Part shown: one piece after another, positions 3,755-27,806 of the stretch
Numbering within the stretch: position 1 is the first letter of the stretch
Layout: each line of letters begins with the position of its first letter
Source: Amphiura filiformis
Lineage: Eukaryota > Echinodermata > Ophiuroidea > Amphilepidida > Amphiuridae
Length of the DNA stretch: 64,000 bases
Assembly (NCBI RefSeq): GCF_039555335.1
Contig: NC_092628.1
Span: forward strand, 98,827,737 to 98,891,736
Direction: 5' to 3'
Notes under the pieces: model-generated
Databases searched by the model: none
What the model saw: only the letters and a program-made list of their open reading frames with translations
What the model was told of the DNA's origin: nothing
Position numbers and translations under genes: made by a program

Positions 3755-3833
3755 ATGGTTAAATTATTCACCGTAACAGTAGTAATATTTTTCTCTGTAT
3801 TCGCTGTTGTGTCTGACCACATAGTTAATGCAC
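3755..3833 (+). CDS. Gene A exon 1: start and signal peptide
   Basis: The ATG opens a short basic start (MVK) followed by a strongly hydrophobic run ending near VVSDHIVNA, a typical secretory signal. Donor GTAAGT follows at 3834, phase 1. The leftover C joins AA of exon 2 to give a Gln codon. The exon is too short to stand out as an ORF. Confidence 0.8.

Positions 3834-27806: not shown

Follow-up and report, generated by a model that had tools for sequence, protein, structure and literature searches.

The locus analysed here raises the question of what kind of protein would combine a propeller of the LDL receptor type with the SUSD2/Mesh/MUC4 core, and whether both truly belong to one gene. 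We examined it in a window of 64,000 nucleotides from the brittle star Amphiura filiformis (NC_092628.1, positions 98,827,737 to 98,891,736), within which all positions below are counted. The gene that carries this combination, which we call gene A, was spliced by hand from the raw sequence of window 1-33500, using GT-AG sites. It lies on the plus strand, as do all of its features given below, and comprises 31 exons between 3755 and 27806; the ATG at 3755 and the stop at 27806 are identical to the limits that had been given in an earlier inspection of the letters by themselves (hereafter the sequence-only reading). The reading frame codes for 1697 amino acids with no break, all 30 introns are GT-AG, and their phases are consistent, with 23 introns in phase 1, four in phase 2 and three in phase 0.

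The predicted protein starts with a signal peptide, a YWTD propeller, a three-cysteine linker, a TIG-position exon and an fn3-like exon; its middle part consists of AMOP, VWD with a GDPH motif, C8-3_MUC4, sushi and two Calx-beta domains, and its C-terminal part of five EGF-like modules, a SEA-like domain, one further EGF-like module, a transmembrane helix and a tail. Pfam was run on the spliced protein in four pieces that together span all 1697 residues, and the propeller, AMOP, VWD, sushi and the two Calx-beta domains, all listed by the sequence-only reading, were matched above the curated cut-offs, as was C8-3_MUC4. That reading had overlooked the TIG-position exon, the weak fn3-like exon, C8-3_MUC4 and the 15-residue linker exon with its three cysteines. 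Exon 1 (3755..3833) holds the start codon and the signal peptide (aa 1-26), a hydrophobic segment, while exons 29-31 (26984..27806) encode, as judged from splicing and hydrophobicity, the transmembrane helix at about aa 1605-1627, the cytoplasmic tail and the stop. Both gene A and the second copy described below are predicted to encode type I membrane receptors. Gene A ends in NPSF (27789-27806), which we take to resemble the NPxF/NPxY adaptor-binding motifs. A search of Rfam gave zero matches at gathering scores.

The propeller (aa 27-296) occupies exons 2-5 (4759-5016, 5392-5554, 5961-6091 and 7443-7700), as indicated by Pfam, by PDB matches and by the register of its blades. The LDL receptor class B family was matched in four stretches with an E value of 1.4e-32, above its curated cut-off. 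Six blade signatures were located at aa 33, 85, 127, 170, 215 and 257; those of blades 2-6 fit YW(T/C/S)D; the signature of blade 1 was chosen by eye. The six blades are counted by sequence register. When the PDB was searched with the N-terminal part of the protein, 41 distinct sequences were found at E <= 0.001, comprising propellers of LRP2, LRP4, LRP6, LRP8, LDLR, VLDLR and nidogen, as well as a small number of propellers of designed or NHL type (pizza, PknD). Alignments covered aa 50-272 for LRP6, up to aa 73-310 for LRP2, aa 72-263 for LDLR and aa 73-272 for nidogen.

Propellers of LDLR, the LRPs and nidogen normally have an EGF module directly after them. In gene A, by contrast, this module is shrunk to the three-cysteine linker, which is followed by the SUSD2/Mesh core. 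The two Amphiura copies share the YWTD propeller with the LDLR/LRP family, but Pfam detected no LDL receptor class A repeats in either of them at E up to 1. At the same threshold there was also no match, in A or in B (the latter without exon 1), to a NIDO or somatomedin-B domain concealed in the N-terminus. The propeller thus appears to sit in the place that is taken by NIDO in Mesh or by somatomedin-B in SUSD2.

Beyond the linker, exons 7-8 (8634..9506) encode a domain in the TIG position, placed as in Mesh, and an fn3-like domain, for which exon 8 gave only a weak Pfam match (E 0.023). Exon 7, which precedes AMOP, is 47% identical between A and B, and gave no notable Pfam or PDB-profile match; exons 7 and 8 were also folded one at a time, together with the corresponding exons of B, and both models were poor, with mean pLDDT values of 41.7 and 44.8. 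The remainder of the core is well defined in Pfam, with AMOP in exons 9-10 (9744..11527; E 6.8e-30), VWD in exons 11-13 (12687..17996; E 1.8e-11), C8-3_MUC4 with C940/C946 in exon 14 (18207..18461; E 3.5e-12) and sushi in exon 15 (18634..18822; E 8.2e-10). The GDPH cleavage motif (aa 701-704; 12698..12709) is kept in B. A PDB search with the core of gene A returned chiefly sushi chains and one weak match to mucin-5B (E 3.7e-4).

The stretch from GDPH through sushi contains six cysteines, whose spacing is 6-36-26-14-13 in both genes. In human SUSD2, the available text of PMC6696261 places the cysteines of the C-terminal fragment at 683, 689, 725, 751, 765 and 778, which is the same spacing. Since the cysteine spacing after GDPH equals that of human SUSD2, the core of A and B is of the SUSD2/Mesh/MUC4 type; to speak of an unrecognised architecture, as had been done, was too strong for the core.

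Each known member of the group matches this protein in part. SUSD2, of 822 amino acids, shares AMOP, VWD with GDPH, and sushi, but has a somatomedin-B N-terminus, and no propeller or stalk is named for it in the accessible part of its description (PMC6696261). The expectation that a NIDO or other N-terminus precedes such a core fits SUSD2 only in its second half, as the domain is somatomedin-B and not NIDO in the excerpts of both sources (PMC11788884, PMC6696261). Mesh of Drosophila (DVSSJ2 of the corn rootworm) is a single-pass protein with the order NIDO-TIG-AMOP-VWD-sushi (PMC4964579), to which the TIG-position exon, AMOP, VWD and sushi of A and B correspond; its N-terminal NIDO was undetected in A and B, and propeller, Calx-beta, EGF and SEA are not among the modules named for Mesh in the portion of the source at hand. 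With MUC4 and the mucin4-like proteins of sea anemones, A and B have AMOP, VWD/GDPH, C8-3_MUC4 and EGF in common, and some Actinia mucin4-like proteins end in a C-terminal SEA, as stated in the available passages of PMC9080433. MUC4 and its likes carry NIDO and Pro/Thr/Ser-rich regions, neither of which was detected here, whereas sushi and propeller are not named for MUC4 in those passages. In A, for which alone this was computed, there is no mucin-type block rich in these residues (S+T+P <= 35 per 100-residue block). As neither NIDO nor somatomedin-B was detected in either copy, and A has no S/T/P-rich block, the A/B protein is none of SUSD2, Mesh and MUC4. Among the matches listed, from open-licence papers, there was no fusion of AMOP with YWTD in print, and such a fusion may stand in automatic annotations; one paper of that set, PMC7853314, mentions both terms, and in its excerpted text a YWTD protein (CR_7) and a SUSD2-like mucin (CR_2) are separate proteins. 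No relatives of A and B were found in viral or bacterial/archaeal contigs, which has no bearing on animals.

The stalk begins with two Calx-beta domains in exons 16-19 (19592..21984; Pfam E 1.4e-37 in two stretches), followed by five EGF-like modules of six cysteines each, one per exon, in exons 20-24 (22291..24914). A SEA-like domain in exons 25-26 (25225..25866) is placed between the fifth EGF-like module and the last one, which was recognized by its cysteine pattern in exons 27-28 (26376..26723). The cysteine pattern bears out the six EGF-like modules proposed previously, whose Pfam scores in A lie below the cut-offs (EGF_TEN 53 of 65 bits, E 4.6e-14; EGF_2 20.5 of 22.1; EGF 20.3 of 21.5) and in B above (EGF 47 bits, E 2.9e-12). 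The SEA module, on the other hand, is weaker than had been implied, with sub-threshold Pfam scores of 16.4 bits in A (E 0.01) and 20.8 bits in B (E 4.3e-4) for a cut-off of 26.4. A single-sequence PDB search with the SEA region of A yielded an unrelated shikimate dehydrogenase as its sole match (E 0.54); the profile built from A and B also gave one match, 2e7v 'Transmembrane protease' (E 0.1), which we take to be a SEA domain.

The cut-site motif of this domain reads GSVIV in A (aa 1500-1504; 25704..25718) and GSVLV in B, near to but not the same as GSVVV. According to the available text of PMC6954182, GSVVV (or GSIVA) motifs lead to autoproteolysis of SEA domains, which once cleaved hold together until force acts. 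A GSVxV motif in a juxtamembrane SEA-like domain is common to A, B and the SEA-cleaved receptors MUC1, ADGRF1 and ADGRF5, although the SEA likeness of A and B is weak and their cleavage is predicted only. Two introns of gene A carry the arms of a 187-nt inverted repeat (20450-20636 and 22937-23123, 94% complementary), perhaps a mobile element.

A tblastn search with the gene A protein located a second gene, B, on the minus strand of the same window (63763-36589), convergent with gene A and tail to tail with it; the sequence-only reading had missed this paralogue. A and B are the only copies that tblastn found in the window. Exons 2-29 of gene B were modelled and form 1662 codons with no stop, with GT-AG in all 27 introns, while exons 1, 30 and 31 had no convincing candidate in the window. 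An in-frame ATG and a hydrophobic run are found just upstream of exon 2 (~63830-63764, minus strand), possibly a signal peptide of its own or, by chance, a T-rich acceptor tract.

The order of domains in gene B is that of gene A. The propeller (exons 2-5; 63763-63521, 59339-59150, 58522-58386 and 57360-57103) was matched to LDL receptor class B in two stretches (E 1.2e-12), and its blade signatures three and four are degenerate (YWAN, FWSQ). It is followed on the same strand by the three-cysteine linker in exon 6 (56084..56131), recognized by likeness to exon 6 of A, by the TIG-position and fn3-like exons 7-8 (54297..55492), placed by alignment to A, and by exons 9-15 (49308..53337), which hold AMOP (E 1e-22), VWD (E 8.5e-12) with GDPH at 52207..52218, C8-3_MUC4 (E 2e-15) and sushi (E 1.7e-6), identified by Pfam and cysteine spacing. 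Two Calx-beta domains (exons 16-19, 45728..48727; E 8.8e-37), five EGF-like modules (exons 20-24, 40874..45445) and the SEA-like domain (exons 25-26, 37903..38505; GSVLV at 38059-38045) lead to the last EGF-like module, the transmembrane helix and the start of the tail in exons 27-29 (36589..37673), assigned by alignment to A.

The alignment of A with B spans 1585 residues, 754 of them identical (48%), and 58 of the 61 ectodomain cysteines of A are aligned with a cysteine in B. Both intron phases are equal in 28 of 28 modelled exons, though several exon lengths differ; this match is not fully independent, as the boundaries in B were guided by A and the phase was imposed for exons 6 and 28. Differences fall on codon positions 1, 2 and 3 in the numbers 618, 520 and 996, and pS (0.787) exceeds pN (0.351). 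Judged by these values and by the excess of change at third positions, A and B are ancient paralogues under purifying selection. Identity is higher in AMOP (53%), VWD (60%), C8-3 (60%) and sushi (70%), and lower in the propeller (38%), the fn3-like domain (33%), SEA (40%), the last EGF (35%) and the TM-tail exon (34%). Because a diverged copy of the entire order sits in the same window, the architecture is more than chance; with an old second copy adjoining gene A, this uncommon set of domains would seem to be genuine and maintained rather than the product of a misread gene.

The surroundings of both genes contain several repeats. A 65-nt direct repeat (38549-38613 and 40825-40889, 88% alike) covers the donor site of exon 24 of B with one copy and lies in intron 24 near exon 25 with the other, and an intron of B holds a tandem repeat of about 145 nt in 4.9 copies (42815-43523). 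Remains of reverse-transcriptase-like reading frames were seen by eye between the genes (31900-33400). Introns of A share short repeats with the side of the window that holds B (7964-8101/35680-35520, 12355-12563/60240-60755 and 14580-14798/46349-46107).

The joint between propeller and core is exon 6 (8308..8352 in A), a linker of 15 residues and three cysteines whose B counterpart scores 39 against it, the best of 74 control windows reaching 31. A translated comparison of the plus-strand frames of A with B (E up to 0.05) gave 84 matches, of which 39 fall off the modelled exons on one or both sides, many of them grouped in repeats that A and B have in common and some being isolated and weak. 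In the gap that separates exon 5 of A from its exon 7, the comparison showed seven matches of one repeat (7964-8101) and a weak one on the opposite strand, over exon 6. On the evidence, the propeller, AMOP, VWD, sushi, Calx-beta and EGF-like modules appear to lie in one gene.

The two proteins are also unusual in their N-glycosylation sites. The ectodomain of A (1578 residues) contains zero N-x-S/T-x sequons, against a mean of 11.1 in residue shuffles, none of 5000 of which reached zero; that of B (1594 residues) contains three, against a shuffle mean of 12.2, with six of 5000 shuffles at three or fewer. From the propeller through sushi, no sequon is present in either. Serine or threonine follows asparagine at +2 only twice in A, both times as N-P-S, and is not depleted at other offsets (13 at +1, 14 at +3), while stop-free non-coding stretches of at least 30 codons in the window hold a normal number of sequons (258 versus 262.8 expected). 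The depletion was noticed after a scan of seven motifs, and its effect far exceeds that many trials; because of their shared ancestry, A and B do not count as two independent cases. SUSD2, at half the size, has nine predicted glycosylation sites in the accessible text of PMC6696261. So low a number of sequons suggests a head that operates where molecules are tightly packed or where proteins contact one another.

What, then, might such a protein do? Reasoning from the sequence, and partly by inference, we lean slightly towards the view that A and B, with a core of the SUSD2/Mesh/MUC4 type, a propeller head and a Calx-beta/EGF/SEA-like stalk, are pre-cut adhesion receptors that are released at the SEA joint. 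The VWD domain would be cut at GDPH during maturation, and its halves would remain disulfide-linked, as reported for SUSD2, while the SEA-like domain would cut itself at GSV(I/L)V and form a non-covalent joint beside the membrane. The propeller would serve as the ligand-binding head. A ligand or a mechanical pull would then part the molecule at the SEA joint, which alone among the predicted pre-cut sites has no disulfide lock, and release the entire head, and the TM-tail stub that remains would signal or be cleared.

Both motifs, GDPH and GSVxV, are kept in A and B. The available text on SUSD2 describes cleavage at GDPH with the halves disulfide-linked at the surface, for which its authors infer a serine protease and not self-cleavage, and a link between the halves that mutation of C683/C689 did not abolish (PMC6696261). 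In the excerpts available, the GDPH cut of MUC4 is termed putative and autocatalytic (PMC8660890), and that of FCGBP is autocatalytic and argued to stabilise VWD (PMC10880436). We count the weak SEA likeness, the degenerate third and fourth blades of B, the serine protease inferred for SUSD2, the dispensability of its C683/C689 and a stabilising role of the GDPH cut against this reading.

Other roles overlap in part with this one and with one another, and their probabilities need not add up to one. It is possible, if on balance doubtful, that A and B are structural components of a barrier or junction that stand in for Mesh, the head packing laterally with partners at an epithelial junction and the cuts serving maturation only, with no shedding. 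Mesh has the nearest core order (NIDO-TIG-AMOP-VWD-sushi, in the available text of PMC4964579), a sushi domain-containing protein is named as a septate-junction component in the accessible part of a starfish paper (PMC13409769), and absent N-glycans would fit close packing; however, NIDO was undetected in A and B, and the SEA-like domain of the stalk, with its cut-site motif, fits release. We regard as unlikely that the SEA-like domain stays uncut and the stalk is a plain spacer, the receptor signalling or adhering intact, since G-S-V-x-V is kept in both paralogues though the domain is only 40% identical, even if SEA matches that are sub-threshold or absent speak for such a role.

Recognition of an immune type, with a propeller that diverges under changing ligands and a pair of receptors that covers different targets, has a low probability. 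The propeller is indeed more diverged than the VWD-C8-sushi part (97 of 257 versus 209 of 339 residues identical, Fisher p ~1e-8), but the fn3-like domain, the last EGF, the TM-tail exon and SEA diverge about equally, and there are just two copies in the window. Positive selection on the propeller was considered and is unsupported, as its pN (0.435) is lower than its pS (0.784), in what is a weak test since silent sites are saturated. Lastly, that exons 1-5 form an upstream gene of their own, mistakenly fused in the model to a SUSD2/Mesh-like gene, the outcome against which the sequence-only reading had warned, is very unlikely and hardly credible: AATAAA/ATTAAA words do occur (intron 5 of A has two, and introns 5 and 6 of B have two each), B has an in-frame ATG and a short, moderately hydrophobic stretch before exon 7, and it is conceivable that two neighbouring genes were duplicated together, yet the bridging exon 6 has its counterpart in B, which keeps phases and order as well, no stop interrupts the frame, no in-frame ATG precedes exon 7 in A, and in the gap from exon 5 to exon 7 of A the translated comparison (plus-strand frames, E up to 0.05) gave only a repeat and the opposite-strand match.

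Returning to the release of a pre-cut head, we tentatively suggest that A and B may represent a receptor family not described before, which would date back at least to the split between them, in which a propeller of the LRP type is set on a SUSD2/Mesh core with two cut joints, VWD being disulfide-locked and SEA free, and in which selection would keep nearly all N-glycans off an ectodomain of about 1600 residues, as a bare-protein head that force could release. Near-total avoidance of N-glycosylation sites is striking in so huge a membrane ectodomain and, if confirmed, asks why glycans are excluded. The presence of two cleavage motifs in one receptor leads to a testable mechanism of shedding, and the existence of two paralogues, together with cysteines that match those of SUSD2 exactly, provides strong handles for orthologue searches. 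For the SUSD2/Mesh/MUC4 group, the core after GDPH is conserved, down to its cysteine spacing, between A, B and human SUSD2, and the finding suggests that the N-terminal head is exchangeable, with NIDO, somatomedin-B and now a YWTD propeller on one core.
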